From assembly GCA_016195815.1 (NCBI GenBank), contig JACPYX010000007.1, positions 434,001-498,000 on the forward strand: a DNA stretch of 64,000 bases, given 5' to 3'. The notes beneath the pieces were generated by a model, which saw only the letters and a list, made by a program, of their open reading frames with translations, was not told where the DNA came from and made no database searches. Position numbers and translations under genes: made by a program. The DNA is from Chloroflexota bacterium (GTDB lineage Bacteria > Chloroflexota > Anaerolineae > Anaerolineales > Villigracilaceae). Positions 12,656 to 35,621 of the stretch are shown piece after piece (the stretch's first letter is position 1; each line of letters begins with the position of its first letter).

Positions 12656-12664
12656 GGGACTGTC

Positions 12665-14308: not shown

Positions 14309-14326
14309 TATCGAGGAACTTTAATT

Positions 14327-16687: not shown

Positions 16688-16729
16688 TCAGCCTGCTCCG
16701 ATTTGCGATACGATGCAAAAGGAATTAAG

Positions 16730-19063: not shown

Positions 19064-19084
19064 GGAATAAAAAGGCCTGCCTTT

Positions 19085-21097
19085 ATGATAACTTCAGAAA
19101 CAAAAACAGAATTGCCGCAAGCAAAACGAAGAATGTTTAATATTGGATTTCTGGCAAACATCCGCGTAAGCTTGAAATTAGCCATGCTTATTGCCATTAT
19201 GATAGCCGGCATTGCGGCAATATTTTTGGCATCCTCACAAGGCCTCCGCACGATCAACTCGCACTTGACCAACCTTTATGCAAACATTCTTGTCCCGATA
19301 TCCAATATCAGCCAGGCCGACACCGCACTCGCAAATATCGAAGCTCAGACCGAATCTTTACGCAACCCAAATCTTACGCCAACCGAGAGAAGCAACCGCA
19401 TTGAGGTAATCCTATCTTCGGAAGCGACTTTCGACCCAATTCTGGCAAGATACAATCTCGAATGGGTCACAACAAAAAACCTGAATTTTACAAATCTATT
19501 GCGCGATGCGGGCAGGCTGGACCTGCAAGAAGATGAGGTCGCGACTCTCGCGGCCTTGCATACTTCTTACGAAGCTTATAAAACATCCCGCCAGGTATAT
19601 CAAACGTCCGTTCAGGCGGGCCGCATTGATAGTCAAGCAGAAGGAGCAACAAGGACGGCGCTCTTTGAAGCGCGCCAGAAGTTGAAGCGTTTAATTGACA
19701 TCAACAACGAATACGCCAACCTATCGAATGTCGCCGCTCAAACAGCGTCCCGGCAGGTGGAAAATTTCATGAGCATCGTATTGATCGGCACTATTTTGCT
19801 GGGCGTTATACTCGCGTATATCATCGCCCTTTCGCTCAACACCCGCATTGGCATAGTAGAACACGCTGCAACCGCCATGCAGCAGGGCCATCTTCAACAA
19901 CAGGTGAGGATGATGGTCGGCGGCAAGGATGAAATTACAACACTGGCAGACGCATTCGACAATATGGCATTTCAATTAGGAGACCTAATCACCGGCCTCG
20001 AACAGCGGGTAATGGAACGCACATCTGCATTGGAAATTGCCAACCAACAAAATAAACGCCGCGCCGAACAATTCGAGGCAATTGCGGAAGTTGCCCGCTC
20101 CATTGGCTCTGCTCAAAACCTGCAGAGTCTATTGCCTCATCTATCCACCGTGATTAGCGAACAATTCGGCTTTTATCACGTGGGCGTCTTCCTGCTGGAC
20201 AAGGACCGCGAATATGCCGTCCTGCAAGCCGCAAACAGCGAAGGCGGACAGCGGATGCTTGCCCGAGGCCACAAGCTCAAAGTAGGCGAAGTTGGTATCG
20301 TCGGTTATGTCACCTATACAGGCAATCCGCGCGTCGCTCTTGACACAGGCACTGACGTCGCCTATTTCAACAATCCCGACCTGCCGGAAACACACTCTGA
20401 AATTGCCCTGCCCATAAGAATCGGAGATGAGATCATTGGCGCCCTGGATGTTCAAAGCACCAATGCAAATGCTTTTTCGCAGGAGGACACAATTGTTCTT
20501 TCCACCCTGGCCGACCAGGTGGGCATTGCCATTCAGAACTCCCGTCTCTACGACGAAATCCGCAGAGCAATGGCCGAATCTGAATCGCTTTACAGTCAGT
20601 TCGTTCGAGAAGGATGGAAACAATACGCGGATACTAAAAAAGTGGTTGGGATTCGCCGCAAAGGCAGTGAGGCCGTCATCCTGACAGAGCACATCCAGTT
20701 AACTGATTCGAAAGAACCCACGCACAATAAAAATGCAGTCCAAAATAATAGCGCTGCCGAGCTAAGTGTTCCAGTAAAACTGCGCGGCCAGGTAATTGGC
20801 ATGTTAAATATTCGCAAGCCCGAAACCCGCCAATGGGAGCGGGATGACATGGATATTGTACAAGCCATTATAGAACGAACGGCCATCTCTCTAGAAAACG
20901 CCCGCCTGCTCGAAGATGCCCAGCGCCGCGCAAAAAAGGAGCGCACGATCGGCGAAATCACATCCAAGATCAGCGGGTCCATCAACATGCGCAATGTACT
21001 CCAAACAGCAGTTGAAGAATTAGGGCGCGCAATTCCCGGTTCCGAGGTCATCATCCAGTTCCAAAGCGGCAGAGAAGCTGAAAGGCCGGAGAAGTAA
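19085..21097 (+). CDS. Helical-bundle-HAMP-GAF receptor without output domain (receptor 6)
   Basis: A 670-residue sensor whose extracytoplasmic part differs from its neighbours. Between TM1 (about 30-50, LAMLIAIMIAGIAAIFL) and TM2 (about 225-250, FMSIVLIGTILLGVILAYII) lies a helix-rich region of about 180 residues with LTNLYANILVPISNISQADT, like the four-helix-bundle sensors of many chemoreceptors. HAMP and coiled coil follow, then a full GAF (FGFYHVGVFLLDKDREYAVL, NPDLPETHSEIALPI, ALDVQSTNANAF), a tryptophan segment (QFVREGWKQYADTKKVVGI), a half GAF (LSVPVKLRGQVIGMLNIR) and the common tail (ERTIGEITSKISGSINMRN). No MCP signalling domain is present, so it is not a chemotaxis receptor. Four bases separate it from receptor 7. 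Confidence 0.87.
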   Translation: MITSETKTELPQAKRRMFNIGFLANIRVSLKLAMLIAIMIAGIAAIFLASSQGLRTINSHLTNLYANILVPISNISQADTALANIEAQTESLRNPNLTPTERSNRIEVILSSEATFDPILARYNLEWVTTKNLNFTNLLRDAGRLDLQEDEVATLAALHTSYEAYKTSRQVYQTSVQAGRIDSQAEGATRTALFEARQKLKRLIDINNEYANLSNVAAQTASRQVENFMSIVLIGTILLGVILAYIIALSLNTRIGIVEHAATAMQQGHLQQQVRMMVGGKDEITTLADAFDNMAFQLGDLITGLEQRVMERTSALEIANQQNKRRAEQFEAIAEVARSIGSAQNLQSLLPHLSTVISEQFGFYHVGVFLLDKDREYAVLQAANSEGGQRMLARGHKLKVGEVGIVGYVTYTGNPRVALDTGTDVAYFNNPDLPETHSEIALPIRIGDEIIGALDVQSTNANAFSQEDTIVLSTLADQVGIAIQNSRLYDEIRRAMAESESLYSQFVREGWKQYADTKKVVGIRRKGSEAVILTEHIQLTDSKEPTHNKNAVQNNSAAELSVPVKLRGQVIGMLNIRKPETRQWERDDMDIVQAIIERTAISLENARLLEDAQRRAKKERTIGEITSKISGSINMRNVLQTAVEELGRAIPGSEVIIQFQSGREAERPEK

Positions 21098-21101
21098 TCA
21101 C

Positions 21102-23657
21102 ATGACAAACGTTTCTCCAAAATCCCCGCCTCCAAATAAAGGCCGCTTCGGATCGCTCAGTTTTCGCGCCAGGCTGATCATAGGGAATATATCTGTCGCG
21201 TTCCTGGCCGTCGCGGCGTTGAGCTATTATGTCTATTATCATGCGCAGACAGAGAACGCGTACCTGAGCGGTCAACTGGATATAAGCGTTCAACAACGCG
21301 CAAAAGATCAATTATCCACTATCAGCACCGAACAGGCCAATGCATTAGACAATTTCTTTGCCTCGGCGAAAAAAGATATCGTTAACCTCGGCGCCACGAC
21401 CGAAAAATTGCTCTCGCAAGAAACCGTCCTCGGCAGTGGAACCTATTGGAATGCCGCCCAACAGTTATACCGCCTGCCAAATGGAAACTGGGATAATCCA
21501 AGAAGCGACGCCGGGTCTGTTTTTATGCCTGCCAACGTCGAACTCAACGATCCACTGACACAGGAATTGAATACGGTAAAGCAGTTAGACTTCGTCGCGC
21601 CGACGCTGCTAAAATCCAACCCGGACGCCATCGCAGTTTACTTCGGCGGCGTTCCCAGCGAAACGATCTATTATCCAAACGTTGACCTGGCGTCTCTGGT
21701 GCCTCCAGATTTTGATATAACCAAGCGTCCCTGGTTTGTAAAGGCCGCGCCCGCGCAAAATCCATCACGCGCAACCGTATGGTCAGACCCATATCTGGAC
21801 GCGGCTCAGAACGGCCTTGTAATCACAGGAAGCGTTCCCGTCTTCGACCCGGCAGGAAATTTCCGCGGTGCCGCCGCGATGGATTTCCAGTTAAATAGAA
21901 TCACAACTTTGGTGTCCAGCATCAAAGTTGGGGACACTGGCTACGCTTTCCTTGTAGACAAGGATCAACGGCTGATTGCCATGCCGCCAGCGGCATATGC
22001 AGACCTGGGAATCGCGCCCAAATCAGTTCCTTTAGGCGAGTCTCTCGATCCGAGCAAGGCGCCCGCCTCAATCCCCGCAGAGTTCTGGGCGGTCCTGACA
22101 AAAATGAACTCCGGCCAAAGCGGTTTGGAAATCATCGAGATCAATGAGGTAAAGCGTTTTGTCGTATATCACTCGATCCCGGAAGTTGGCTACAATCTGA
22201 TCATTATTGTTCCAACCGAGGAAATGCTGACAGACTCAATTGCCGCAAAAGAGCAAATTGCTCAATCGTTCAGAAGCACACTGTTATTAAGTGGCTTTTT
22301 AGTGGTCGTAATTCTGCTTATCGCACTTATAGCCGCACTGACACTTGGCAATCGATTGGTCCGTCCGTTGGGTGCATTAACCAAAACGGCTGAAGAAATC
22401 ACGAGCGGCAACCTCGAAGCCGAAGCCGAGGTGCACGGGCAGGATGAAATCAGCGTCCTGGCAACCGCCTTCAATGCAATGACAGCGCGTTTGAGAAATA
22501 CCTTGCAGGGGCTGGAACAGCGCGTGATTGAACGCACTACTGAACTGCAAATAGCCAACAAAAAAAATGGACGCCGCGCAGAACAATTCGAAGCCATCGC
22601 ACAGGTGGGCCATGCCATCAACTCCATTCGCCGCACCGAAGAATTGCTTCCAAGAATCGCATCCGTGATCAGCGAGCACTTCGGCTATTACCATGTGGGC
22701 ATCTTCCTGAACGATGAGAACAACCTGGTGTCATATCTTACGGCATCCAATAGCGAAGGCGGCAAGAAAATGTTGGCGCGCGGCCATAACTTGAAAATAG
22801 GAGAACAGGGCATTGTGGGTTATGTGGCGAATGCCGGCCAGCCTCGCATTGCAAGCAGCGTAGGCGAGGATGCAGTTTTCTTCAATAACCCAGACCTGCC
22901 GGACACAAAATCCGAAATGGCCCTGCCCCTCCGCTCGGGCGGTAAGGTGGTGGGCGTGTTGGACGTTCAAAGCCGCGAGGAAAACGCTTTCTCAGAAGAT
23001 GATATTAACGTTCTAAACGCCCTGGCCGACCAGGTCACCCTTGCAATTGACAACTCGCGGCTTTACGAATCGACCCGCAGGTCTTTGGAAGAAGCCGAGG
23101 CGCTATACCGACAATATTTGAGACAGGCCTGGAATCGCCTGCCGCGCGAACAACAATTGGCCGGATATCACTACGACCAGCGAGGCGCCACACCGCTGGA
23201 AGTTCCGGTCAACTTGGACGCGGAAGAGAAAAAAGACGTTGAAGAAGCCGCCCGCTTCAACGTCCCGATCAAACTGCGCGGAGAAACAATCGGCAATCTC
23301 GTTGTCCAGGTCCCGCAAGGCAGGGCCTGGGGGCAGGATCAAATTGATCTGGTCGAGGCAGTGGCCGAGCGTGTGGCGCTGTCTGCAGAAAACGCCCGCC
23401 TGTTCGACGAAACCAGCCGCCGCGCGGAACGCGAGCGCATGGTGACCGAGATCACTTCCAAGATACGAAGCACAAACGATCCAGAAGCCATGATCCGCAC
23501 CGCTCTGGATGAGTTGCGTAACGCGCTTGGTGCGACCCAGGTGCAATTAATTCCACAGGCCATCTCCGCATCTCAGAAAAACCAAAGCGAAATCATTTCT
23601 TCAACGCCGCAGGATCCGGCACAAAAGGCGCAACGCGGAAATGGAGCAAAGAAATGA
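21102..23657 (+). CDS. Cache-HAMP-GAF receptor without output domain (receptor 7)
   Basis: An 851-residue sensor. TM1 (about 24-46), a large double-Cache extracytoplasmic region (KRPWFVKAAPAQNPSRATVW, then GSVPVFDPAGNFRGAAAMDF and VGDTGYAFLVDKDQRLIAMP), TM2 (about 393-415), HAMP (GQDEISVLATAFNAMTARL), coiled coil, a full GAF (about 500-650: FGYYHVGIFLNDENNLVSYL, NPDLPDTKSEMALPL), a tryptophan segment (YLRQAWNRLPREQQLAGYHY), a half GAF (FNVPIKLRGETIGNLVVQV) and the common tail (ERMVTEITSKIRSTNDPEA), ending in a charged Lys-rich stretch. No output domain. The stop codon overlaps the start of the ParA gene (ATGA), so receptor and ATPase are translationally coupled. Confidence 0.88.
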   Translation: MTNVSPKSPPPNKGRFGSLSFRARLIIGNISVAFLAVAALSYYVYYHAQTENAYLSGQLDISVQQRAKDQLSTISTEQANALDNFFASAKKDIVNLGATTEKLLSQETVLGSGTYWNAAQQLYRLPNGNWDNPRSDAGSVFMPANVELNDPLTQELNTVKQLDFVAPTLLKSNPDAIAVYFGGVPSETIYYPNVDLASLVPPDFDITKRPWFVKAAPAQNPSRATVWSDPYLDAAQNGLVITGSVPVFDPAGNFRGAAAMDFQLNRITTLVSSIKVGDTGYAFLVDKDQRLIAMPPAAYADLGIAPKSVPLGESLDPSKAPASIPAEFWAVLTKMNSGQSGLEIIEINEVKRFVVYHSIPEVGYNLIIIVPTEEMLTDSIAAKEQIAQSFRSTLLLSGFLVVVILLIALIAALTLGNRLVRPLGALTKTAEEITSGNLEAEAEVHGQDEISVLATAFNAMTARLRNTLQGLEQRVIERTTELQIANKKNGRRAEQFEAIAQVGHAINSIRRTEELLPRIASVISEHFGYYHVGIFLNDENNLVSYLTASNSEGGKKMLARGHNLKIGEQGIVGYVANAGQPRIASSVGEDAVFFNNPDLPDTKSEMALPLRSGGKVVGVLDVQSREENAFSEDDINVLNALADQVTLAIDNSRLYESTRRSLEEAEALYRQYLRQAWNRLPREQQLAGYHYDQRGATPLEVPVNLDAEEKKDVEEAARFNVPIKLRGETIGNLVVQVPQGRAWGQDQIDLVEAVAERVALSAENARLFDETSRRAERERMVTEITSKIRSTNDPEAMIRTALDELRNALGATQVQLIPQAISASQKNQSEIISSTPQDPAQKAQRGNGAKK

Positions 23658-24439
23658 CCTATGTAATTGCAATCTCAAACGAAAAAGGCGGCGTGGCAAA
23701 AACAACCACCACCCTTTCGCTGGGCGCGGCGCTTGCAGATATGGGGCAAAAAGTTTTGGTAGTGGATCTCGATCCTCAAGCCAACTTAACTCTCGCCCTG
23801 GGCATTGAGCCGGGTTCAGCCGCGGTGACATCCAGCCACATCCTGATCGAATCAGCCCCACTGATGAGCGCCCGACTGGCAACCGAGACGGAAAACCTCG
23901 ACCTGATTCCATCCCACGCCAGCATTGAAAGCGCAGAGCAATTTCTGCCGGTCCGCACGCATTACACATCAGGGTTAAAACGCGCCATTGATAATGCCGC
24001 CCCCCTACCATACGATTACATACTCTTTGACTGTCCTCCATTTCTGGGAGCCATTACCACCAATGCCCTGAGCGCATCAGACCTGTTACTGATTCCCACG
24101 CAGGCCGAATATTTCTCGGCGTACGCTCTCAGGAATATGATGGGAATCATTCGGCGTGTTCGGCAGGAAAGCAATCCCAATCTCGGATACAGAATTCTTA
24201 TCACCATGCTCGACCGGCGCAATCGCACCCACCGCAACATCCAGGAGCAATTACAGAATACATTTGGCGACGGTCTCTTCAAAACCATCATTGAAATTGA
24301 CACCAAATTGCGCGAAAGTCCAATCGCCGGGCTGCCTATTAATCGTTATAAACCCGGCGCCCGCGGGTCACTGCAATATCGCGAACTCGCCCAGGAGCTT
24401 ATCGAATATGTCAAAGAAAAAGACCAACAAACGGCTTGA
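23654..24439 (+). CDS. ParA/Soj-family P-loop ATPase
   Basis: A 261-residue MinD/ParA-type ATPase with the deviant Walker A motif EKGGVAKTTTTLSLG (both signature lysines present, K11 and K16), VLVVDLDPQANLT (Walker A', D40) and DYILFDCPPFLGAITTNAL (Walker B). Family members form ATP-dependent dimers, bind the nucleoid non-specifically and position plasmids, chromosomes, carboxysomes or chemosensory clusters. No ParB gene or visible parS-like repeats lie nearby, and the gene sits between seven receptors and a kinase, overlapping both neighbours (4 bp upstream, 32 bp downstream). This favours a role in positioning or segregating the sensory complex over DNA partition. That role is inference from position. 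Confidence 0.9.
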   Translation: MTYVIAISNEKGGVAKTTTTLSLGAALADMGQKVLVVDLDPQANLTLALGIEPGSAAVTSSHILIESAPLMSARLATETENLDLIPSHASIESAEQFLPVRTHYTSGLKRAIDNAAPLPYDYILFDCPPFLGAITTNALSASDLLLIPTQAEYFSAYALRNMMGIIRRVRQESNPNLGYRILITMLDRRNRTHRNIQEQLQNTFGDGLFKTIIEIDTKLRESPIAGLPINRYKPGARGSLQYRELAQELIEYVKEKDQQTA

Positions 24440-27400
24440 GACCCTGTTCGAGGATGTACAAAAGGAAGAGACCAAGCCGGTAAAACGCGCCCCGAAAAAT
24501 GCGGGCGCGTTACCTCCCATTAAACCTCCGCCTCCTGCCCGGCTTCGAAACAGCCCGCCGACAAAAGCGGCACCAACGCTTTCTGAAGAGCCGCTCGCCA
24601 TGACCACCGCAGTTTCGAACAATTCGGGAGCCATGTCGCTTGCCTTCCGTACCGACGAGAAGAGCTGGGCGACTTTACGCGTTATTGACGAAGAGTCTCC
24701 GCGCACCTGGGCAATGGAAGATCAAATGTTGGTCAAGCAGGTTGCCGATCAATTATCGCTGGCGCTCGAAAACGCGCGCCTGTTTGAAGCCACGCGCAAA
24801 AGCGAACAGGCAGTAGCGCGCTCTGAAAGCGAGCTGCGCGCCCTGTTCTCCGCCATGAGCGATGTTATCATCGTCAACGACAGAGAAGGCCGCTACATCC
24901 GCATTGCTCCCACAAATCCATCCCGCCTCTTTCGCCCATCCGATGAAATGATCGGAAAGAAAATCGAAGATGTGCTGCCTCCGGCTGTCGCGCAAACCCT
25001 GATGGCAGCCATCCACCAGGCGCTCGAATCAAACGAGACCATCAAAGTCGAATATCCCCTGGTAATTAATCAGAAGGAATATTGGTTTGACGGAAATGTT
25101 TCAAAACTGAACGAAAACGAAGTCTTTCTGGTCGCGCGCGATGTTACAGATCGAAAGCATAGCGAACTGATTCAGGCTGCGATTACGCAGATTTCGGAAG
25201 CCGCACTCAGTTCGCCCGATCTGCCCAGTTTGCTTAAGATCATCCATGAGAATGTTGGCGGCCTGATGCCGGCCCAAAATTTTTATGTAGCCCTCTACGA
25301 TGAACTCACCGACCAGTTGAGCTTCCCATATTTTGCGGACGAACACGATGCCGCCCCGCCTCCCCAGAAACCCGGCCACGGTCCGACGGATTACGTTCTA
25401 CGTACCGGCAAAACCATCCTCATGACGCCGGATGTCATTGACGAACTGGAGCGCGCAGGCGAAATCAAAGGCGGCGGCACACGCGGGACCGATTGGCTGG
25501 GCGCGCCGCTAAGAAGCGGAGCCAAACGCCTGGGCGTAATGGCCGTTCAAACCTACGACCCAAATACGCGCTTAACAGACACAGACCGAGATACCCTTAA
25601 CCTGCTGGCCGGGCAAGCCGCCATCGCCATCGAACGCAAACGCGCCCAGGAAGAATTACTCAAGTTCAAACTTGGCATTGATCAATCAGATGATGCCGTT
25701 TTCATGACCGATCCCAACGGCACGATCATCTATGCCAACCCAGGCTTTGAAAAGATTTATGGCTTCAAACCGGAGGAAGCCATCGGCCAGAACCCCCGCA
25801 TCCTGAAATCAGGGCTGCTTTCTTCTGAACACTATGAAGGACTATGGAAAACCTTGCTTTCCAAGAAGGCGTTTTCATCGGAAATAGTGAACAAAACCAA
25901 AAGCGGACACTTCGTTCCTGTCGCAGAAACCGATACACCCATTCTCGATGACAATGGCAATATCATAGGGTTTCTCGCGGTACAAACCGACATCACTGAA
26001 CGAAAACGCGTCGAGGATGCCCTCAAGCGCCGCAACGAATATCTGGCCGCGTCTGCAGAAATCGGACGCCTGGTCACTTCGACCCTGGACCTGAACACCA
26101 TTTTCAGCCGCACCGTTAACCTGGTTTCAGAACGTTTCGGTTATTACCATGCAGCCATATTCATTATCGAGGAGACAGGCTTCAACGCCATCCTAAGCGA
26201 AGCTGTAGGGCCGGCCGCCGAGGAAATGAAACGGCAGGAACACAGCCTGCCAGTCAATGAAAGGTCTATCGTCGGCAAAGTATCGCTAAACGGCGAGCCG
26301 ATTATCGTCAACAACACCGCTCTTGACGTGGCCCACAGACCTAACCCTCTGCTTCCCGATACGCGCGCCGAGGCAGCTATTCCGCTACGCGTCGGCAGCC
26401 GCATCATCGGCGTCCTGGACATTCAATCTGCCAATGTGGACGCCTTCACTCCAGACGACATCGCGGTCATGCAAATCCTGGCCGACCAGGTCGCCATCGC
26501 CATTGATAATGCGCGATCCTACGAGCTGTCGCAACAGGCGGTTATGGAAATGCGCGAAATAGACCGCCTCAAGAGTCAGTTCCTTGCCAACATGAGCCAT
26601 GAATTACGCACACCGCTAAACTCCATCATCGGTTTCTCGCGCGTCATCCTCAAAGGAATTGACGGCCCTGTCACAGACGTGCAGCAGCAAGATTTGACGG
26701 CCATTTACAATTCAGGCCAGCACCTGCTCGGCTTGATCAACGACGTATTGGATCTTGCCAAGATCGAAGCCGGCAAAATGGAACTGGCATTCGACGAAGT
26801 CAACATTTCCGACCTGATCAACAGCGTCGCATCCACTACAAGTGGATTGATCAAAGACAAGTCCATCAAATTCATAAAAAATGTCCAGCAGGATTTGCCA
26901 ACCGTCCGCGCGGATGCCATCCGTGTCCGCCAGATCATGATCAACTTAATTTCAAACGCCGCAAAATTTACAGATGCCGGCGATATCGTGCTGGATGCTC
27001 ATCTGCAATCCGGTCCCGCCGGGCGCCCGGAAATCCTCATCAGCGTAACAGATACCGGCCCCGGCATCTCACCGGAAGACCAGCTCAAACTCTTCCAGGC
27101 TTTTTCACAGGTGGACGATTCTCCGACCCGGAAGACAGGCGGCTCGGGACTTGGGCTTTCGATCAGCCAACAGCTTGTCCAAATGCATGGCGGACAGATC
27201 GGCGTTCACAGCGCCGTTGGCAAAGGCAGCACATTCTACTTCACCCTGCCTGTGCATCGCATCAAAGATGAGACGCCGCAATTTGGAACCGCAAAGGTTA
27301 TCCTGGCCGTTGATGACGATCCGCAGGTCATTGCGTTGTATGAACGCTACCTCCAACCACAGGGCTATCAAGTGATCCCCGTCACCGATCCCACAAAAGC

Positions 27401-28037
27401 AAAGGTGCGCGCTAAAGAGCTAAAGCCGTACGCAATCACCCTCGACATTATGATGCCCGGCGTTGACGGCTGGTCGGTGCTTGCCGACCTGAAATCAGAC
27501 AGCGAAACACATGAGATCCCGGTTGTCATCTGCAGTATCATTGAAGAGCAGGAACGCGGTTTCAGTCTTGGCGCGGCTGACTATTTGCTAAAGCCAATAC
27601 TTGAAGAAGATTTGTTGGGCGCCCTCAACCGCCTGAATTCAGATGGAAGTATTCATGAAGTCCTGATCATTGACGACGACCCGAACAGCCTGCGCCTGAT
27701 GGAAAAAATATTTAAAGACCAAGGCCAATACAAAACCATCATTGCCGAAGGCGGCCGGCAAGGCTGGGAATCCATTTCTGCTCACGTTCCCCAAGCGGTT
27801 ATTCTCGACCTCTTCATGCCTGAAATGGATGGGTTTAGCATTCTCGAAAAAATGCGCGACAACGCCCGATTACGCGATGTGCCGGTGATTGTCGTCAGTG
27901 GCGGAGACTTAACCCCCGAACAACACAGACAGCTTTCGGAATTCGGCCAGCGGCTGATCAATAAAGGATCTCTAAACGAAAAAGACTTTATCAACAATGT
28001 TGAGCGCACACTTAAGCGCGCCGAACGAAAGCATTAA
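24408..28037 (+). CDS. Hybrid histidine kinase: half GAF-PAS-GAF-PAS-GAF-HisKA-HATPase-REC-REC
   Basis: A 1209-residue soluble kinase, no membrane segment. A proline/lysine-rich N-terminus (1-75) leads to the last part of a GAF domain only (about 76-128, ADQLSLALENARLFEAT). Then PAS (about 137-250), GAF (255-410), PAS (415-535, ANPGFEKIYGF), GAF (545-705, FGYYHAAIFIIEE, LLPDTRAEAAIPL), HisKA with H731 in FLANMSHELRTPLNSIIGFS, HATPase with the N box NLISNAAKF, G1 DTGPGIS and G2 GGSGLGLS, REC1 (D1013) and REC2 (D1134). REC2 has KG in place of the usual KP. The ATG at 24408 lies inside the ParA gene; the frame is open to 24156 but that stretch only overlaps ParA. It is the only kinase of the receptor operon and so the obvious hub. 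Confidence 0.92.
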   Translation: MSKKKTNKRLETLFEDVQKEETKPVKRAPKNAGALPPIKPPPPARLRNSPPTKAAPTLSEEPLAMTTAVSNNSGAMSLAFRTDEKSWATLRVIDEESPRTWAMEDQMLVKQVADQLSLALENARLFEATRKSEQAVARSESELRALFSAMSDVIIVNDREGRYIRIAPTNPSRLFRPSDEMIGKKIEDVLPPAVAQTLMAAIHQALESNETIKVEYPLVINQKEYWFDGNVSKLNENEVFLVARDVTDRKHSELIQAAITQISEAALSSPDLPSLLKIIHENVGGLMPAQNFYVALYDELTDQLSFPYFADEHDAAPPPQKPGHGPTDYVLRTGKTILMTPDVIDELERAGEIKGGGTRGTDWLGAPLRSGAKRLGVMAVQTYDPNTRLTDTDRDTLNLLAGQAAIAIERKRAQEELLKFKLGIDQSDDAVFMTDPNGTIIYANPGFEKIYGFKPEEAIGQNPRILKSGLLSSEHYEGLWKTLLSKKAFSSEIVNKTKSGHFVPVAETDTPILDDNGNIIGFLAVQTDITERKRVEDALKRRNEYLAASAEIGRLVTSTLDLNTIFSRTVNLVSERFGYYHAAIFIIEETGFNAILSEAVGPAAEEMKRQEHSLPVNERSIVGKVSLNGEPIIVNNTALDVAHRPNPLLPDTRAEAAIPLRVGSRIIGVLDIQSANVDAFTPDDIAVMQILADQVAIAIDNARSYELSQQAVMEMREIDRLKSQFLANMSHELRTPLNSIIGFSRVILKGIDGPVTDVQQQDLTAIYNSGQHLLGLINDVLDLAKIEAGKMELAFDEVNISDLINSVASTTSGLIKDKSIKFIKNVQQDLPTVRADAIRVRQIMINLISNAAKFTDAGDIVLDAHLQSGPAGRPEILISVTDTGPGISPEDQLKLFQAFSQVDDSPTRKTGGSGLGLSISQQLVQMHGGQIGVHSAVGKGSTFYFTLPVHRIKDETPQFGTAKVILAVDDDPQVIALYERYLQPQGYQVIPVTDPTKAKVRAKELKPYAITLDIMMPGVDGWSVLADLKSDSETHEIPVVICSIIEEQERGFSLGAADYLLKPILEEDLLGALNRLNSDGSIHEVLIIDDDPNSLRLMEKIFKDQGQYKTIIAEGGRQGWESISAHVPQAVILDLFMPEMDGFSILEKMRDNARLRDVPVIVVSGGDLTPEQHRQLSEFGQRLINKGSLNEKDFINNVERTLKRAERKH

Positions 28038-28050
28038 GGAATATCAAATA

Positions 28051-29721
28051 ATGTCGTTTATCATAAAATGTCTGGACTGTGGATATGCCGCCCCTTATTT
28101 TCCAACATCCACGAATTGTCCGCGTTGTAACAGCCAGTGGCGCGAGGCCGAATATGACTACGAGACTCTGGCAAAAACCCTGCCGTTGCAACTTTCGGGC
28201 CGCTCCTTCGACTTGTGGCGGTATCGCGAACTGCTGCCAGTCCGCAACCCCAACCCGACTCTGACTCTCGGCGAGGGCGGTACGCCGCTGATTCAGGCGG
28301 TCAATCTGGGCATGATGCTGGGAACTCCCAACCTGTTCATCAAGGATGAGCGTCAGGGGCCGACCAGTTCATTTAAGGATCGGCAGGCCTCCGTCACGAT
28401 TGCTGCGCTGAAAGAAGCGGGCATCACGGAGATGGTGGCCGCTTCCACCGGAAATGTCGCCATCGCATATTCTGCATTTGCGTCCCGCGCCGGGATAAAA
28501 CTCTGGGCGTTTGTAACCAGCCTGGTTCCCGCGGTAAAGATGCGTGAAATCGCCCTTTATGGAAGCCAGGTCGTCAAAGTCACAGGCTCTTATGACCAGG
28601 CCAAACAAGTTGCGGCCGAATTTGCGCGTCAAAGAAATCTTTATCAGGACATGGGCGCGCGCACCATTACTTCCATTGAAGCGATGAAGACGATTGCTTT
28701 TGAGATTGCCGAACAACTCACCGGCCTTCCTGGATCAAATAATTCAAGTAACGGCAAGGCTCCTCTCTGGCGCGCTCCTGATTGGTACGTGCAGGCCATT
28801 AGCGGCGGAATGGGGCCGTTGGGCGTCTATAAAGGCTTCCGAGAATTGAAGCAGATGGGATTGATAGACCGCATTCCGTCAATCGCTGTGATCCAGGCGG
28901 ACGGCTGTGCGCCGATGGTGAGCGGATTTAAACAGGGGCTGGAAACTGCCATTCCCGTAACCGCGCCTAATACGCGCATCGAAACGCTGGCAACGGGCGA
29001 TCCGGGACGATCTTATACGATCCTGCGCGAGCGCGTGATCGAAACAAAGGGCACCTTTGAAAGTGTCAGTGACGAAGAAGCATTCCGCGCCATGCACGTG
29101 CTGGCAAAAATGGAAGGCGTCTCAGCCGAGCCTGCCGCGGCGGTCGCCTTTGCCGGTTTATTCAAGCTGGTACGCGCAGGAACCATCAAACCGAATGAAA
29201 CAATTGTCGTCAACTGCACAGGCCACACAATGCCCGCGGAGGAATTCATTCTCGGCAGCAACTGGACGCGCGATGTGCAATTCCCGGCAAAGAAACAAGA
29301 AAATCCGGAGGAAGGCCTGCTCTCTGCGCTCAACCAGGTGGCTCCCAATCGTTTCCCGCGCGTTGCCATTGTGGACGACACAGCCGAAGCGCGGCGCCTG
29401 ATCCGCCGCATTCTGCAATCACAGGGCGATTTCGCGATTTTCGAAGCGGCCAATGGAAAAGAAGGCCTTGAATTGATTCAACGCGAACTGCCCGATCTGG
29501 TTATTCTCGATTTAATGATGCCCGAGATGGATGGCTTTGCAGTCATGGACGCGCTCAAAGCCAACCAGGATACTGCCGACATTCCAGTCATTGTCGCAAC
29601 CGCAAAAGAATTAACTCCTAATGAAAAGAGCCGACTCGGCACACAGATTCAATCATTGCTGCAAAAGGGCGATTTCCTCAACGACGAATTCCTTGAAGAA
29701 GTTAAAGCGCTGATCAAATAA
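28051..29721 (+). CDS. thrC: Threonine synthase fused to a response-regulator receiver domain
   Basis: A 556-residue fusion. A zinc-ribbon-like start (CLDCGY ... NCPRC) precedes a fold-type II PLP enzyme: GEGGTPL, GPTSSFKDRQASVTI with the Schiff-base lysine K109, ASTGNVAIAYSAFASRAG and the PLP-phosphate loop SGGMGPLG. Threonine synthase converts O-phosphohomoserine to threonine. After residue about 410 comes a full receiver (436-556): D442-D443, phospho-acceptor D487 in LVILDLMMPEMDG, T517 and K539 followed by G instead of P. AAGGA precedes the ATG, 13 bp after the hybrid kinase. The receiver resembles the kinase's REC2 over its C-terminal part (ELTPNEKSRL / DLTPEQHRQL, LLQKG / LINKG). Phosphorylation by that kinase is inferred, not shown. 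A simple fusion by sequencing error is unlikely because the single frame is continuous. Confidence 0.9.
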   Translation: MSFIIKCLDCGYAAPYFPTSTNCPRCNSQWREAEYDYETLAKTLPLQLSGRSFDLWRYRELLPVRNPNPTLTLGEGGTPLIQAVNLGMMLGTPNLFIKDERQGPTSSFKDRQASVTIAALKEAGITEMVAASTGNVAIAYSAFASRAGIKLWAFVTSLVPAVKMREIALYGSQVVKVTGSYDQAKQVAAEFARQRNLYQDMGARTITSIEAMKTIAFEIAEQLTGLPGSNNSSNGKAPLWRAPDWYVQAISGGMGPLGVYKGFRELKQMGLIDRIPSIAVIQADGCAPMVSGFKQGLETAIPVTAPNTRIETLATGDPGRSYTILRERVIETKGTFESVSDEEAFRAMHVLAKMEGVSAEPAAAVAFAGLFKLVRAGTIKPNETIVVNCTGHTMPAEEFILGSNWTRDVQFPAKKQENPEEGLLSALNQVAPNRFPRVAIVDDTAEARRLIRRILQSQGDFAIFEAANGKEGLELIQRELPDLVILDLMMPEMDGFAVMDALKANQDTADIPVIVATAKELTPNEKSRLGTQIQSLLQKGDFLNDEFLEEVKALIK

Positions 29722-29748
29722 CCACCGGCATTACTTAGCCAATTGACA

Positions 29749-30699
29749 ATGCAAAAAACCCACACGACAGGAATTTTCGCAGCGCTCAGTTCGGCGATCT
29801 TCCTCGGGCTTTCGCCTGTTTTTGGAAAACTCGCCATTAATTTTGGCTTCTCCCCGCTGGCTGTTGTGGCGTTGCGCACCAGCATGGCCGCGGCGTTGAT
29901 TTTTTTGATCGTTATCATTTTTTATCGGTCATTCCTTTATATATTTCCCGTCGGGCTATTTGGGTGTATTTTGGCCGGGCTGATCAACGGACTTGGTTCG
30001 ATCTTATACTACATGGCGCTTACGCGTTTAAGCGCCAGCGTTGGCCAGATGCTGTATTCCCTTTATCCATTTTTCGTGGCAATCTGGATGGTGCTTGACC
30101 GTCAACCGCCCAGCCGTCTGACACTGATTCGCATCGGTATCGCCACGGCGGCCATGCTCCTGCTCACCAGCCTTCCATCCAATTCAGCCGACCCGCTTGG
30201 CGTGGCAATGATGCTTGGCGCCGCCATTCTGTATGCTTTACATCTTCCGATAAATCAACGCGTGCTTTACGAAGTACCCGCCCCGACGGTCACACTTTAT
30301 ACATTACTTTCAATGAGCGCCGTCGTCGTGCCGGCGTATTTGATCTTCGACACAAAGTGGCCTACGATCAGTATGCCGTGGTGGCCGGTCTTCGGGTTAA
30401 CCCTGGTCACATCGCTTTCACGTTTATCGCTATTCCTGGGAATAAAACGAATCGGCGGGATGCAAACCGCCCTGCTCGGTTTAGGCGAGCTATTGGTGAC
30501 AATTTTGTTCAGCTACATTTGGCTGGGCGAGCAGCTTTCATGGACTCAATGGCTGGGCGCGGCGGGACTCGGCTTGAGCCTGCTTCTCGTTAGATTCGAA
30601 TCGCCGCCCCCCCTTCCTCACAGCAGCAAAAACGGCTGGCTGTCTTGGATCCGTCCGCCGGATATTCCGCGCGATATTCCCTGGGGACCGCATGAATAA
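29749..30699 (+). CDS. EamA/DMT-family transporter
   Basis: A 316-residue integral membrane protein with about ten hydrophobic helices in two EamA repeats (first half begins GIFAALSSAIFLGLSPVFGK, second half covers about 160-295). Members of the drug/metabolite superfamily export amino acids or other metabolites. The ATG at 29749 is preferred; a TTG two codons earlier is possible and no strong Shine-Dalgarno is visible. It lies 27 bp after the threonine synthase fusion, so export of threonine or a related amino acid is an attractive but unproved role. The C-terminal tail is proline-rich (RPPDIPRDIPWGP). It is the last gene of the plus-strand operon and converges with the regulator at 30721 without an obvious terminator hairpin. 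Confidence 0.82.
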   Translation: MQKTHTTGIFAALSSAIFLGLSPVFGKLAINFGFSPLAVVALRTSMAAALIFLIVIIFYRSFLYIFPVGLFGCILAGLINGLGSILYYMALTRLSASVGQMLYSLYPFFVAIWMVLDRQPPSRLTLIRIGIATAAMLLLTSLPSNSADPLGVAMMLGAAILYALHLPINQRVLYEVPAPTVTLYTLLSMSAVVVPAYLIFDTKWPTISMPWWPVFGLTLVTSLSRLSLFLGIKRIGGMQTALLGLGELLVTILFSYIWLGEQLSWTQWLGAAGLGLSLLLVRFESPPPLPHSSKNGWLSWIRPPDIPRDIPWGPHE

Positions 30700-30720: not shown

Positions 30721-31458
30721 TTATTTCTCGCCCTCATAAACATATCCCGTTCCACGCACACTGGCAACGCGCTCCGAGAGAGCCGGGAATTCATCAAGTT
30801 TGTGGCGCAAGCGGCTTACCAGTGGACGCAGGATTTCAGGCGCTTCACGCTGGGACGTATCATATCCCTGCACCAACAAGACCAATTCCCGATGCGAAAA
30901 AACCTTGCCCTCATTCTCCATCAAAATACGAAGCAGGCGTCCCTCAGCTGGAGTTAGATGTTCGACCTTCCTGCCGGAACGGATCTGACGCCTTGAAAGA
31001 TCAACAAGCGTGCCATCCTTCAAACGAAATTCAATAACAGTTTCGTCCACTTCAGTTGAATCGCCGCCACCGCTCTTGGATTGCAGCTTAGCCGTCCGGC
31101 GTGTTAAACCTTTTTTGACGCTGGCCAGAACTTGCGCGGGGGAGGCTGGTTTTGTCAGATAATCATGGATACGCAGCCGCAGGGCCTGAATGGCCGAATC
31201 GGTTGACCCATACGCGGTAAGCAAAATCACTTCAGTGTCTGGCGAGACCTGATTTACCACCTGGATCACCTGCAAACCATCCATGCCAGGCATACGCAAA
31301 TCCACCACCATCAAGTCTACGGGATGCGTGCGAACATGCTCCACCGCCGCTTGACCGTTTGGAACAGAAAACACATTATAGCCTTCCAGCTTGAGTATCT
31401 CCGTCAACGATTGGCGCGCCACATTTTCGTCGTCCACAACCAGGATATTTGATTTCAT
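30721..31458 (-). CDS. Response regulator with C-terminal winged-helix DNA-binding domain (OmpR-like)
   Basis: A 245-residue transcription regulator. Receiver 1-120: ILVVDDENVAR, phospho-acceptor D53 in LMVVDLRMPGMDG, LLTAYGS and the lysine in YLTKPASP. A Ser/Gly linker leads to a winged helix (about 145-245) with HLTPAEGRLLRILMENEGKV, VSRLRHKLDEFP and the wing VRGTGYVYEGE, as in OmpR/PhoB. It should bind DNA as a phosphorylated dimer. Its start overlaps the stop of the upstream kinase gene (TAATG), so it is the cognate partner of the kinase at 31458-33023 and probably also of that at 33027-35621. Targets are not visible; the neighbouring catabolic cluster or its own operon are candidates. 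Confidence 0.92.
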   Translation of the reverse strand: MKSNILVVDDENVARQSLTEILKLEGYNVFSVPNGQAAVEHVRTHPVDLMVVDLRMPGMDGLQVIQVVNQVSPDTEVILLTAYGSTDSAIQALRLRIHDYLTKPASPAQVLASVKKGLTRRTAKLQSKSGGGDSTEVDETVIEFRLKDGTLVDLSRRQIRSGRKVEHLTPAEGRLLRILMENEGKVFSHRELVLLVQGYDTSQREAPEILRPLVSRLRHKLDEFPALSERVASVRGTGYVYEGEK

Positions 31459-33023
31459 TATTTGCCTCCGATGGGCAGGAAAACGCGGAAGCAGGCGCCC
31501 TTTCCGTGATCCGGGAGCAGTTCCAACGTCCCGCCATGAGCCGTGATGATATTGTAACTTACCGTCAAGCCCAGCCCTGTCCCGCCATCCTTAGTACTGA
31601 AAAAGGGTTCAAAAATACTGGTCTGTTTTTCGCGCGAGACGCCCGGGCCGCTGTCATCAAACAGGATTTCCACCCCGCCTTTTACAGCCCGCGCTGCGAC
31701 CCGCAAATGGCCCCCATCCGGCATCGCATCAAATGCGTTTAGAATAAGATTTATGAAGACCTGCTGGATTTGACTCCCGACTGCCATGACAGAAGGCAGT
31801 GATGAAGACAGTTCCATTTTAACTTTGACCCCGCGCTCGGCAAGCTGCTTCTGTGTCAGGTTGACCACATAGCCAAGCAAATCCGCCAGATCAACTTGCT
31901 CTGGCCTGACTGCGCCGGGACGATAAAAATCAAGCATCCGTTGCACGGTCAGCGACAGCCGCTCCAACTCCATACGCGCCATATCAAAATACTCTTTGCG
32001 TTTCTCAACCGATAGGTCTTCGCGCCCGGCTAAATGCAGGCAATTTTGTACCGACTGCAATGGATTATTTACTTCGTGGGCAATGGATGCGCTTAAACGT
32101 CCGGCGGCGGCCATTTTCTCGGCCCGCAACAAAGCGTTTTGTGACTCTTCGATCTTGCGGATGTAAGCGCGTTGCTCATCATATAAGCGGGCGTTTTCCA
32201 TTGCCGCCGCCGCCTGCCGCCCTAGAATCTGAAACATCTCCAGGTCGGCTTCGCTAAAGCCGGGTTCGCCGATATTCCTGCCTGCAAACAAGACCCCGCG
32301 AAAATTCTGGCGCGCCACCGGAATAAACATAGCCGCGCTCAACTCCGTTTTTCGCAATCGCGCCTGCGCATTTAGATCTCCCGGTCCGCTCGAATTGATC
32401 AAAAGAGGCGAACCACTTGCATCCACTTGAACAATAAAATCAGCCAGCATCCTACCCTGCCCCGCAAGCAAAATAAATCTTCCCTCATCGTGGGAGTATT
32501 GGTAATAGGACGCATGTGCGCATCGCAATTGGCCGAGAACTGCATGAATAATAAGGTCAAGTAAAGATTCGCTGCGAGTTTCAGACAACAAAGACTCGGT
32601 CACTTCGAATAAAGGCCGCAGGGCGTGAATACGCGCGGCATCTCGCTTTTGCCGGCTGTCGGCCAGCGCCTGCTTGACGGCTTCGACCAATTCACTACTC
32701 TTCTCAAATGGCTTAAGTAGCAGGCCGTCCACACCCTGCCGCAGTGCTCGAATGGCGGTCTCGACAGTGCCAAACCCGGTCATCACCAGCACAGCCAGGT
32801 CAGGTTGCAGGCGGCGCGCATGTGCTACAACTTCAAAACCATCCACGTCGGGCATGCGAATATCAACCAACAAAATATCGGCTTTATTTGTCTTGAGCCA
32901 TTCAACTGCCTGATGCGGGTCAGTCAGCGATGCAACAACATATCCGGCCCGCGACAATATGCGTTTACATAGCAATACAATACCGGGCTCATCGTCAACC
33001 ACAAGAACAGAAAGAGGATCCAT
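31458..33023 (-). CDS. REC-GAF-histidine kinase
   Basis: A 521-residue soluble kinase with an N-terminal receiver, the reverse of the usual hybrid order. REC 5-120 (D54 in ILLVDIRMPDVDG, K104 in LLLKPFEK), GAF about 140-285, HisKA with H316 in LSASIAHEVNNPLQSVQN (NtrB-like NNPL form), HATPase with NLILNAFDAMPDGG, DDSGPGVS and GGTGLGLTVSYNI. The receiver may accept phosphate from the adjacent three-GAF kinase and gate this kinase, forming a chain to the winged-helix regulator. Genes are 3 bp apart upstream and overlap by 1 bp downstream. No membrane segment. Confidence 0.92.
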   Translation of the reverse strand: MDPLSVLVVDDEPGIVLLCKRILSRAGYVVASLTDPHQAVEWLKTNKADILLVDIRMPDVDGFEVVAHARRLQPDLAVLVMTGFGTVETAIRALRQGVDGLLLKPFEKSSELVEAVKQALADSRQKRDAARIHALRPLFEVTESLLSETRSESLLDLIIHAVLGQLRCAHASYYQYSHDEGRFILLAGQGRMLADFIVQVDASGSPLLINSSGPGDLNAQARLRKTELSAAMFIPVARQNFRGVLFAGRNIGEPGFSEADLEMFQILGRQAAAAMENARLYDEQRAYIRKIEESQNALLRAEKMAAAGRLSASIAHEVNNPLQSVQNCLHLAGREDLSVEKRKEYFDMARMELERLSLTVQRMLDFYRPGAVRPEQVDLADLLGYVVNLTQKQLAERGVKVKMELSSSLPSVMAVGSQIQQVFINLILNAFDAMPDGGHLRVAARAVKGGVEILFDDSGPGVSREKQTSIFEPFFSTKDGGTGLGLTVSYNIITAHGGTLELLPDHGKGACFRVFLPIGGK

Positions 33024-33026
33024 AAC

Positions 33027-35621
33027 TTATATCGGCAACCAGACTGTGAACGTTGAGCCCAAACCCGGCCTGCTCTCCACTTCGATTGTACCGCCATGAT
33101 CTGTGACAATGCCGTATGTTACCGACAACCCAAGCCCGGTGCCGCCTGTATTCCCCTTTGTTGTAAAGAACGGCTCAAAGATGCGTTCCTTATTTTGCGG
33201 ATCAATCCCAATTCCGCTGTCTTTTATAGAGACAGTAACCCACGAGCGGTTGCCCCTTTCGCGCGTCACAGTTTGAATATCCAAATTCCCCCCAGATGGC
33301 ATTGCCTGCAAAGCGTTATGGATTAGATTCAGAAAGACCTGCTTCATCTGGTTACTGTCAACCGAAGCCCAGGGAAGTTCTTTTCCAAGCCAGATATTCA
33401 AGCGGACGCCGCTGGTGTGGATAAGATGCTTTGTAAGCGCCAGCACATCTTCAACGATTTCGTTAATATCGGACTTTGAGCGGATGCGCTCGCCCTGCCG
33501 GGCAAAATCCAGCAGGCGCCTGACAACACCGCGGGCGCGATGCGCCTCATGCAAGACCATCTGAATGTCGGCCCGATGCGGCGCGTCATCAGGTGTTTCT
33601 TCCAGCAAAAGTTCCGTAAACCCCGTTACCGTTGTCAAAGGGTTGTTCAATTCATGCGCAATACCTGCCGCCATTTCACCAACTGCCGCCAGTTTGGCGG
33701 CCTGAATAAGCCGGCTCTCCGCATCCTGCTGGGCAGTCATGCGCGCCCGCAACTCGACTTGAGCGGCCCGCAATTGGTGGACAGTCTCCTGCAATCGTTG
33801 ATATTGATCAGCACTGGAAACTACCGTTGCAAGCACACCCGCCAAAGATTCTATCGCAAGCAAATCGTTATTCGTAAACGCATTGCTTTGACTGCTTTCC
33901 ACGTCAATAATGCCGAGTATTCGTCCCCCGTCCTTCAAGGCAACACACAATTCAGATCTTGCATCCCAGCCCTGCAACTGCTTATATAATTTATTCTGGC
34001 TGGTGTCATTGACCAACACACTCTCGCCTGTATAAAAAACGTGCCCCGTGATACCAGCGCTGACAACAAAGTCTTCGCTACCCAAAGCGCGTTGAACCAA
34101 AGAGCGGCGCGAACCGCCGAATCCTAGGATTGGCGAGGCCGAATCATCACCGATTAACATCACGCCAGCCAGCTCATACGCAAAATATTCAGCCAGCAGG
34201 TCGGCAGTAATCTGTGCCATTTCTCTTTTATCACTCAGCCCGATTACCTGCTGAACCACCTCATGGATCAAACCCAAATTGCGCGCACGCGCTTCGGCCT
34301 CCTCGCGCAAACGGCCATATTCCACAAGCCCGGCAAGATGGCTGGCTATAACGACCATTAGATGCTCGTCATATTGACTGAACGCATCCTGGCGCGTGCT
34401 TTCGAGGGAAAGGATGCCTATCGTTTGCCCGCGATATTTAAGTGGAACCATTAACCCGGAGCGCGCCCCCGAATAAACGGGCTTGAAATCGGAGTTGGAA
34501 AGATCGCTCAAGCGCAAAGTACGGCCATTTTGTAAATAAGGCAGTATGGGATGATCCGCCAAAGAGGTGCTTTGTGCGCTGAACTTCCCATCGCGATTAC
34601 TAAATTCACGCACCAGGCGCCCGCCCATGGATGGCAAATAAAGCGCGATCAACTCAGTGCGAAAGGAGCGCGTCAAAAGACCGAATACGCGGCGGGCGAT
34701 CTGATCCAGGTTTTGGGCCGAAGAAACGGTAACAGCAAAATCGTTGAGCATCGCCAGGCGGCGCAAATGTCCTGTAAGCTCATTGAATGTAACGATGACC
34801 TCCACTGAAGGAGACGCCTGCCTGGCAAGTTCTCTCAACTTTTGCCATTCGTCTGCGCTAAATTCAGCCTGGCTCCAGAGCGCAATTGCGCCGATCAGCC
34901 GCCGCCCGATAACGAGCGGCAGGCAGACCCAAAATTTTGTATTCGATTTGCGCGTTGCGTGAGGCAGATTGTCCCATTCGGGCTGGCCCTTTGAAACAGA
35001 CACGTCTGCCAGTGTGCGGTGCAATCGTCGCAGCATGTTATTCGAGTCGATCAAAAGCGAAAGCCCATCTCCACGCGGATCGTTCCACTGGGCTGAAATA
35101 TCAAGCGTGTCGCCGCGGCGTATAGCGAGCCATGCTCCCTGGGGGTTAACAGCATGGACAAAACTTGTCAGCACACGCTCAAGCACACGCGGCATGTCGT
35201 AGGGTAAATCGGTCTGCAAACCGGGAATTAAAATTTCTGAGGGCGCTACAACAGACGGCAGGGATTGAAACAGCCCAGCCATAAGCCTCCAGATGCGTTG
35301 AGCGTTCGCAGTTTGCTGATCGGCAGCAACGAGAATTGCACGAAACGAGTTCGAGATGGGATAAACGTACAGGCGGGCCGCGCCCAGTTTTGAATCCGAT
35401 AAAGAAGCAGAGCGGCTGTTCTCACCCTCCGAAGCTCCCAGCAGCCACGCATCCACCGTCTCTTGCGCGAGAAATTTTGTCAATGCAGTTTGTTTTGTTT
35501 TATTGAGATTGGATACAGACTGCAAAAGCCAATGACCGCCTTCGCGCTCGGCAATGACAGCCCACAGCGCGCCCGTTAACTGGCAAGCCTCTTTCAGTTG
35601 AGTTTCGTTATTATCAACCAT
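33027..35621 (-). CDS. Three-GAF histidine kinase
   Basis: An 864-residue soluble kinase. The first about 130 residues are a degenerate GAF-like unit; GAF-like domains follow at about 145-290, 300-445 and 455-600 (ALYLPSMGGRLVREFSNRDG; GITGHVFYTGESVLVNDTSQ; LGIIDVESSQSNAF). HisKA has its histidine near 656 in VGEMAAGIAHELNNPLTTVT, and the HATPase shows NLIHNALQAMPSGG, DSGIGIDPQ and GGTGLGLSVTYGI. It is the first gene of the minus-strand signalling operon. A TATAAT lies only 11 bp before the ATG, so the message may be nearly leaderless. No transmembrane segment; it should sense intracellular cues. Confidence 0.9.
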   Translation of the reverse strand: MVDNNETQLKEACQLTGALWAVIAEREGGHWLLQSVSNLNKTKQTALTKFLAQETVDAWLLGASEGENSRSASLSDSKLGAARLYVYPISNSFRAILVAADQQTANAQRIWRLMAGLFQSLPSVVAPSEILIPGLQTDLPYDMPRVLERVLTSFVHAVNPQGAWLAIRRGDTLDISAQWNDPRGDGLSLLIDSNNMLRRLHRTLADVSVSKGQPEWDNLPHATRKSNTKFWVCLPLVIGRRLIGAIALWSQAEFSADEWQKLRELARQASPSVEVIVTFNELTGHLRRLAMLNDFAVTVSSAQNLDQIARRVFGLLTRSFRTELIALYLPSMGGRLVREFSNRDGKFSAQSTSLADHPILPYLQNGRTLRLSDLSNSDFKPVYSGARSGLMVPLKYRGQTIGILSLESTRQDAFSQYDEHLMVVIASHLAGLVEYGRLREEAEARARNLGLIHEVVQQVIGLSDKREMAQITADLLAEYFAYELAGVMLIGDDSASPILGFGGSRRSLVQRALGSEDFVVSAGITGHVFYTGESVLVNDTSQNKLYKQLQGWDARSELCVALKDGGRILGIIDVESSQSNAFTNNDLLAIESLAGVLATVVSSADQYQRLQETVHQLRAAQVELRARMTAQQDAESRLIQAAKLAAVGEMAAGIAHELNNPLTTVTGFTELLLEETPDDAPHRADIQMVLHEAHRARGVVRRLLDFARQGERIRSKSDINEIVEDVLALTKHLIHTSGVRLNIWLGKELPWASVDSNQMKQVFLNLIHNALQAMPSGGNLDIQTVTRERGNRSWVTVSIKDSGIGIDPQNKERIFEPFFTTKGNTGGTGLGLSVTYGIVTDHGGTIEVESRPGLGSTFTVWLPI

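Follow-up and report, generated by a model that had tools for sequence, protein, structure and literature searches.

A gene in a Chloroflexota genome encodes, as one protein, a threonine-synthase-like enzyme dependent on pyridoxal phosphate (PLP) and a complete response-regulator receiver domain. It lies directly behind the gene of a hybrid histidine kinase. The conservation of this arrangement suggests that Chloroflexota cells with the fusion probably switch an amino-acid reaction directly by two-component phosphorylation. As a point of orientation, response regulators mostly act by binding DNA or by making second messengers. In this case, the output is an apparently catalytic amino-acid enzyme, kept across several classes of the phylum together with its own kinase. 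If true, sensing would be linked to amino-acid chemistry directly, with no transcriptional step between them. The fusion also points to an uncharacterised enzyme family whose annotation as threonine synthase in many genomes is probably wrong. In the open-access literature searched, we found no paper on a threonine synthase fused to a receiver.

The fusion gene and its spread

The gene occupies positions 28051-29721 (+ strand) of the window, the whole stretch of 64,000 nucleotides analysed here, which comes from an Anaerolineales-like host genome of 3.16 Mb. It is a single stop-free frame translating into 556 aa. Two Pfam domains score above their gathering scores, PALP (residues 72-391, E 3e-62) and Response_reg (residues 438-539, E 6e-20, 72 bits). 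Frame and domains thereby confirm the continuous enzyme-receiver frame proposed in the initial annotation. The protein begins with a four-cysteine ribbon (C7, C10, C23, C26; 28069-28128, +), which probably binds zinc. The fold-type II PLP domain follows (Pfam PALP, residues 72-391; 28264-29223, +), as recognised by Pfam, the structure model and fold matches. A linker (residues 396-435; 29236-29355, +) leads to the receiver (residues 436-556; 29356-29718, +). The structure model reached a mean pLDDT of 83.7 and a pTM of 0.71, and is weak at the receiver end.

The three key residues named beforehand all lie in recognisable motifs. K109 (28375-28377, +), the predicted Schiff-base lysine for PLP, stands in SFKDR and aligns to K61 of the Thermus thermophilus threonine synthase. 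D487 (29509-29511, +), the predicted phospho-acceptor, is found in ILDLMMPEMDGF, and the conserved receiver lysine K539 (29665-29667, +) in LLQKGDF. With D443 and T517, the latter two complete the receiver site. The linker contains a short conserved helix around G422-L427, seen at residues 423-428 in the structure model; G422 and A426 are invariant in 52 sequences, and the remaining linker is fast-evolving. An AAGGA over the kinase stop codon (28036-28040, +) is a likely ribosome-binding site, and translational coupling with the kinase gene is likely. An alternative in-frame start upstream, at 27997, would overlap the kinase gene and is unnecessary, because several relatives begin at the same ribbon.

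For comparison we used 144 distinct fusions from Chloroflexota, the window's own included. K109, D443, D487, K539, K163, H392 and the four ribbon cysteines are invariant in 144/144, with not a single K109 substitution; position 517 is always T or S, and position 442 always D or E. That two neighbouring genes were joined by an assembly or gene-prediction artefact has next to no probability, as the same join recurs in 143 further independent and distinct copies. These many copies likewise rule out a frame change or a chimera, and dispose of the concern, raised with the initial annotation, that the fusion might exist only in a single assembly, through a frame change.

Nearly all relatives from the family and the order have a full-length orthologue, at 53-89% identity, and the fusion is also present in named Anaerolineales MAGs. 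Matches at E<=1e-120 were retrieved from 78 of the 249 class genomes, a count that takes in a second paralogue. A phylum-wide draw of genomes contained the fusion in 29/251, some of them outside the class. At least three groups can be distinguished. The window's orthologues make up f1, and f2 is a paralogue of about 50% identity that many genomes carry in addition to f1. Class-level forms constitute f3, and in some of them the PALP domain is followed by two receivers in tandem (loci L094-L098, L102, L105 and L112).

Among the strong matches of the family, order, class and phylum draws, the receiver was always covered, except for genes cut at contig ends (judged from match coordinates) and one MAG. 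The same matches contained no member of this enzyme clade without its receiver fusion. In MAG G052 (L194:8856-10473), an in-frame deletion has removed the receiver and joined enzyme residues 1-228 to the downstream EamA gene; it is either a true deletion or possibly an assembly error. Within the genus, pN/pS was 0.08-0.13 in both enzyme and receiver, and looser in the linker, often 0.14-0.26. By this measure, receiver and enzyme are under equal purifying selection.

A tblastn search of plasmids yielded nothing beyond unfused threonine synthases or pieces, with no place reaching 80% coverage of the query. In a scan of named genomes, the best 80 of 541 relatives carried Chloroflexota or Anaerolineae titles, save one Blastopirellula record. 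The plasmid search and these best 80 of 541 leave room for the fusion outside Chloroflexota. The record titled Blastopirellula marina (L142), with a fusion at 78% identity, is probably a mislabelled Anaerolineales MAG.

The neighbouring kinase and the gene row

The gene directly upstream encodes a soluble hybrid histidine kinase with the domain order GAF/PAS repeats-HisKA-HATPase-REC-REC (24408-28037, +; its start at 24408 was taken from relatives beginning with MSKKK...). Its stop at 28037 leaves the 13 bp noted earlier between the two genes. The H, N and G boxes are intact, and both kinase receivers keep their Asp. Wherever there was enough flank to judge, a histidine-kinase gene nearly always preceded the fusion directly (f1 94/95 loci, others 32/37), with median gaps of 22 bp in f1 and 15 bp in the others, measured by alignment start. 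No adjacent kinase was present at one f1 locus and at five of the 37 others. The window's kinase (24408-24470) and those of L046, L063 and L072 share at their starts an N-terminal motif, approximately MSKKxxxxRLxxLF, a possible docking peptide. A direct kinase-enzyme fusion was also considered and rejected: the long frames in L094 and L095 reflect GC-rich upstream read-through and a second receiver, with no kinase join.

The two proteins are furthermore linked by their receivers. A search of its whole own genome with the enzyme's receiver gave 50 receiver matches. Apart from the query itself, the adjacent kinase's terminal receiver scored highest (82 bits; the next scored 68). In a quick tree, all 29 fused receivers and nine hybrid-kinase terminal receivers formed one 38-row set with support 97. 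A careful receiver tree, built on few columns, grouped the terminal kinase receivers at 100/99, and the fused receivers weakly, at 28/0. We infer that, of the enzyme's receiver and the terminal one of the kinase, one arose by copying of the other, and such copying predicts that the adjacent kinase phosphorylates the enzyme's receiver.

The sequence features expected of a response regulator are present. The receiver site, comprising the acidic pair, phospho-Asp, T/S and Lys, is complete in all 144 fusions, and a cognate kinase is indicated by gene linkage only, in 126 of the 132 loci with enough flank, the window's kinase having intact catalytic motifs. The invariant receiver residues, the kinase upstream at these 126 loci and the kinship of the receivers make it very probable that, in a real and selected fusion, phosphorylation of the aspartate affects the enzyme or its placement.

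Placement leads to a different reading, in which the receiver serves only for docking or dimerisation, or as a phosphate sink, and recruits a constitutive enzyme to a kinase/ParA complex. The kinship with the kinase's own receiver and the existence of tandem-receiver variants would fit, as would the ParA-type ATPase in the gene row. Pure docking receivers, however, often lose their phosphorylation residues, and here all of them are strictly kept in 144 sequences across a phylum. We therefore regard this reading as rather improbable.

The gene row of f1 runs sensors, ParA, hybrid kinase, PALP-REC and EamA. In the long f1 loci, ParA was present in 61/65, the kinase in 64/65 and EamA in 64/65. 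The ParA/MinD-type ATPase (23654-24439, +), identified by profile matches, lies just upstream of the kinase, and its retention suggests a positioning of the sensory complex. Before it stand six membrane or GAF sensor-like proteins (7185-23657, +) with MASE11, Cache, 4HB, HAMP and GAF domains, in which no kinase or methyl-accepting output domain was found. The EamA (DMT) transporter behind the fusion (29743-30699, +), also recognised by profile matches, is a probable amino-acid or metabolite exporter. It directly follows the fusion in 93/95 f1 loci versus 4/35 elsewhere, which places export outside the universal core. Judged by their domains, the convergent genes further downstream (30721-35621, - strand) encode an OmpR-type regulator, present in 49/65 f1 loci, a REC-GAF-kinase and a GAF-kinase.

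Other loci have other neighbours. Unlike f1, the f2 loci carry one receiver downstream and, in many cases, a PALP gene of the PRK08197 type. The window's own genome also has (contig C17, L056:7118-10375) a 'threonine synthase' of the PRK08197 type (588 bits) at a distance of 13 bp from a GAF-PAS histidine kinase; together with the f2 loci, it connects kinases and threonine-synthase-like enzymes of this group a second time. Outside the class, one locus (L099:10259-11743) has a PAS-GAF-STAS protein between fusion and EamA.

Nature of the enzyme

The initial annotation had described the enzyme part as a full threonine synthase. A complete threonine-synthase-like PLP domain is present, but the identity as threonine synthase was not supported. 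The fusion scores about 160.4-162 bits against the threonine synthase profile TIGR00260, a borderline miss of the cut-off of 167.1, and 249.4 bits against PRK08197 (cut-off 303). Some members of the second paralogue just pass TIGR00260 (e.g. 174.8), as does at least one f1 orthologue (168.4). This test is therefore weak by itself, and the clade tree is stronger. In this tree, 23 fusions came together in one clade (100/100), whose stem is 1.9 changes per column long. Apart from the fusions, the genome's canonical thrC grouped with the five solved threonine synthases at 100/99. By score, cysteate synthase was rejected, with 116 bits far below the TIGR03844 cut-off of 324.9.

The pattern of kept and replaced residues is specific. 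Retained are the equivalents of K61, K116, E162, K165, the STGN loop and T317 (as T/S) in T. thermophilus numbering; in the fusion, the PLP lysine is K109, the loop is S132-N135 and the T/S is residue 390, and the glycine-rich phosphate loop is likewise kept. In contrast, T88, N154, S155, R160, Q164, N188 and N191, identical in 5/5 solved threonine synthases and shared by the canonical thrC of the window's genome, are replaced in 71/71 fusions compared. At the equivalents of N154, S155, R160 and N188, these 71 carry M/R, G, S/A/G and G, respectively. Several of the seven are presumably contacts to the substrate phosphate, going by work on the T. thermophilus enzyme, and N154, S155, R160 and N188 would belong to the O-phosphohomoserine pocket.

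The initial annotation had also asked for another thrC in the genome. A canonical thrC (292 bits) does lie beside thrB (260 bits), both above cut-off. Threonine supply in the window's genome is therefore independent of the fusion, which is unlikely to be its housekeeping thrC. In several near-complete fusion genomes (e.g. G010, G017, G022), no thrC match >280 bits was seen, so that a role in threonine synthesis is possible there.

Could the fusion then be a true threonine synthase, a second thrC placed under two-component control? Among solved structures and profiles, threonine synthases come closest to it, it keeps the PLP lysine, the K116 equivalent and the STGN loop, its 162 bits are near the cut-off, and in genomes such as those just named it could serve as thrC. 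The missed cut-off of the window's protein, the separate long-branch clade, the canonical thrC-thrB pair and the seven changed positions in every fusion compared all speak against it, and we judge it unlikely. As judged from these comparisons, the enzyme would be vitamin-B6-dependent and related to, but distinct from, threonine synthase, and that name is doubtful. A different phospho-substrate, offered as an alternative in the initial annotation, fits better than threonine synthase.

The remodelled pocket, in surroundings made up entirely of signalling genes, is also compatible with a PALP part that no longer works as an enzyme and senses a ligand instead, an amino acid or PLP, tuning the flow of phosphate through the relay. 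Yet the fusions retain the PLP lysine (K109 in 144/144), the STGN loop, T/S390 and the glycine-rich phosphate loop, which is the pattern expected for catalysis. A pure ligand sensor is thus improbable.

Proposed mechanism and known systems

The explanation we favour, with moderate confidence, is a response regulator with a divergent PLP enzyme as output, phosphorylated by the neighbouring hybrid kinase, acting on a substrate other than O-phosphohomoserine and, in f1, served by export through EamA. To the intact co-selected domains, the kinase linkage, the receiver kinship and the divergence from threonine synthase, all read from the sequence, it adds phosphotransfer, control of activity, a different substrate and export as presumed parts. 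The GAF/PAS and membrane sensor proteins would feed input to the soluble hybrid kinase, leading to its autophosphorylation. The kinase would then phosphorylate its own receivers and pass phosphate to D487 of the enzyme's receiver, which may change the activity, or the assembly, of the PLP domain. The signal would most likely travel through the short conserved linker helix or by receiver-mediated dimerisation. Since the PLP chemistry is intact but the substrate pocket rebuilt, the PLP domain probably carries out a beta/gamma elimination-replacement on another activated amino acid. For f1, the product's probable route out of the cell is the linked EamA transporter. More tentatively, and with clearly less confidence, the dedicated PLP enzyme switched by the hybrid kinase may make a novel, non-protein amino acid; exported by EamA, it would act across Anaerolineae and other Chloroflexota as a signal or as a metabolite that is shared. 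Owing to the one-kinase pairing and the invariant phosphorylation site, the model is testable with two purified proteins.

Threonine synthase ThrC (1uim/1v7c, 2d1f, 2zsj, 6cgq/6nmx, 1e5x/2c2b) is among the closest known systems, sharing the fold type II, the PLP lysine and the STGN loop, and providing the best structural matches of the fusion model (Z 38-46). The fusion differs from it by an identity of 28-33%, the separate clade, the seven replaced positions, the NCBIfam scores below cut-off and the receiver. The plant enzyme, with 2c2b a complex with S-adenosylmethionine, shows that this fold is open to allosteric control. Cysteate synthase CapA2 (9k3c) is the second structural match (Z 43.3), and its profile TIGR03844 aligns the N-terminal Cys ribbon of the fusion from residue 7. 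Identity to cysteate synthase is 21-23%.

Fusions of receivers and metabolic enzymes are already recognised. Bacterial receivers have repeatedly been attached to standard metabolic enzymes, and archaeal response regulators with enzymatic outputs include a KaiC-like ATPase, a BcsA-like glycosyltransferase, thioredoxin reductase and PPDK, with a family- or genus-wide spread (PMC5847659). A kinase-paired output of the fold-type II PLP kind was not found in the open-access literature searched. Our fusion shares with these systems a receiver joined to a metabolic-type enzyme. Unlike the archaeal examples, it is a PLP enzyme, spans several classes of one phylum and has its receiver at the C-terminus.

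A PLP amino-acid enzyme with a receiver-derived domain is also known from the extended AAT-fold Orn/Lys/Arg decarboxylases with an N-terminal receiver-like 'wing' (PMC8503589). These are of fold type I, and the passages on them describe no kinase pairing. The fusion lacks their combination of fold type I and N-terminal receiver: it is of fold type II (Pfam PALP), and carries a C-terminal receiver with a complete phosphorylation site and a dedicated kinase.
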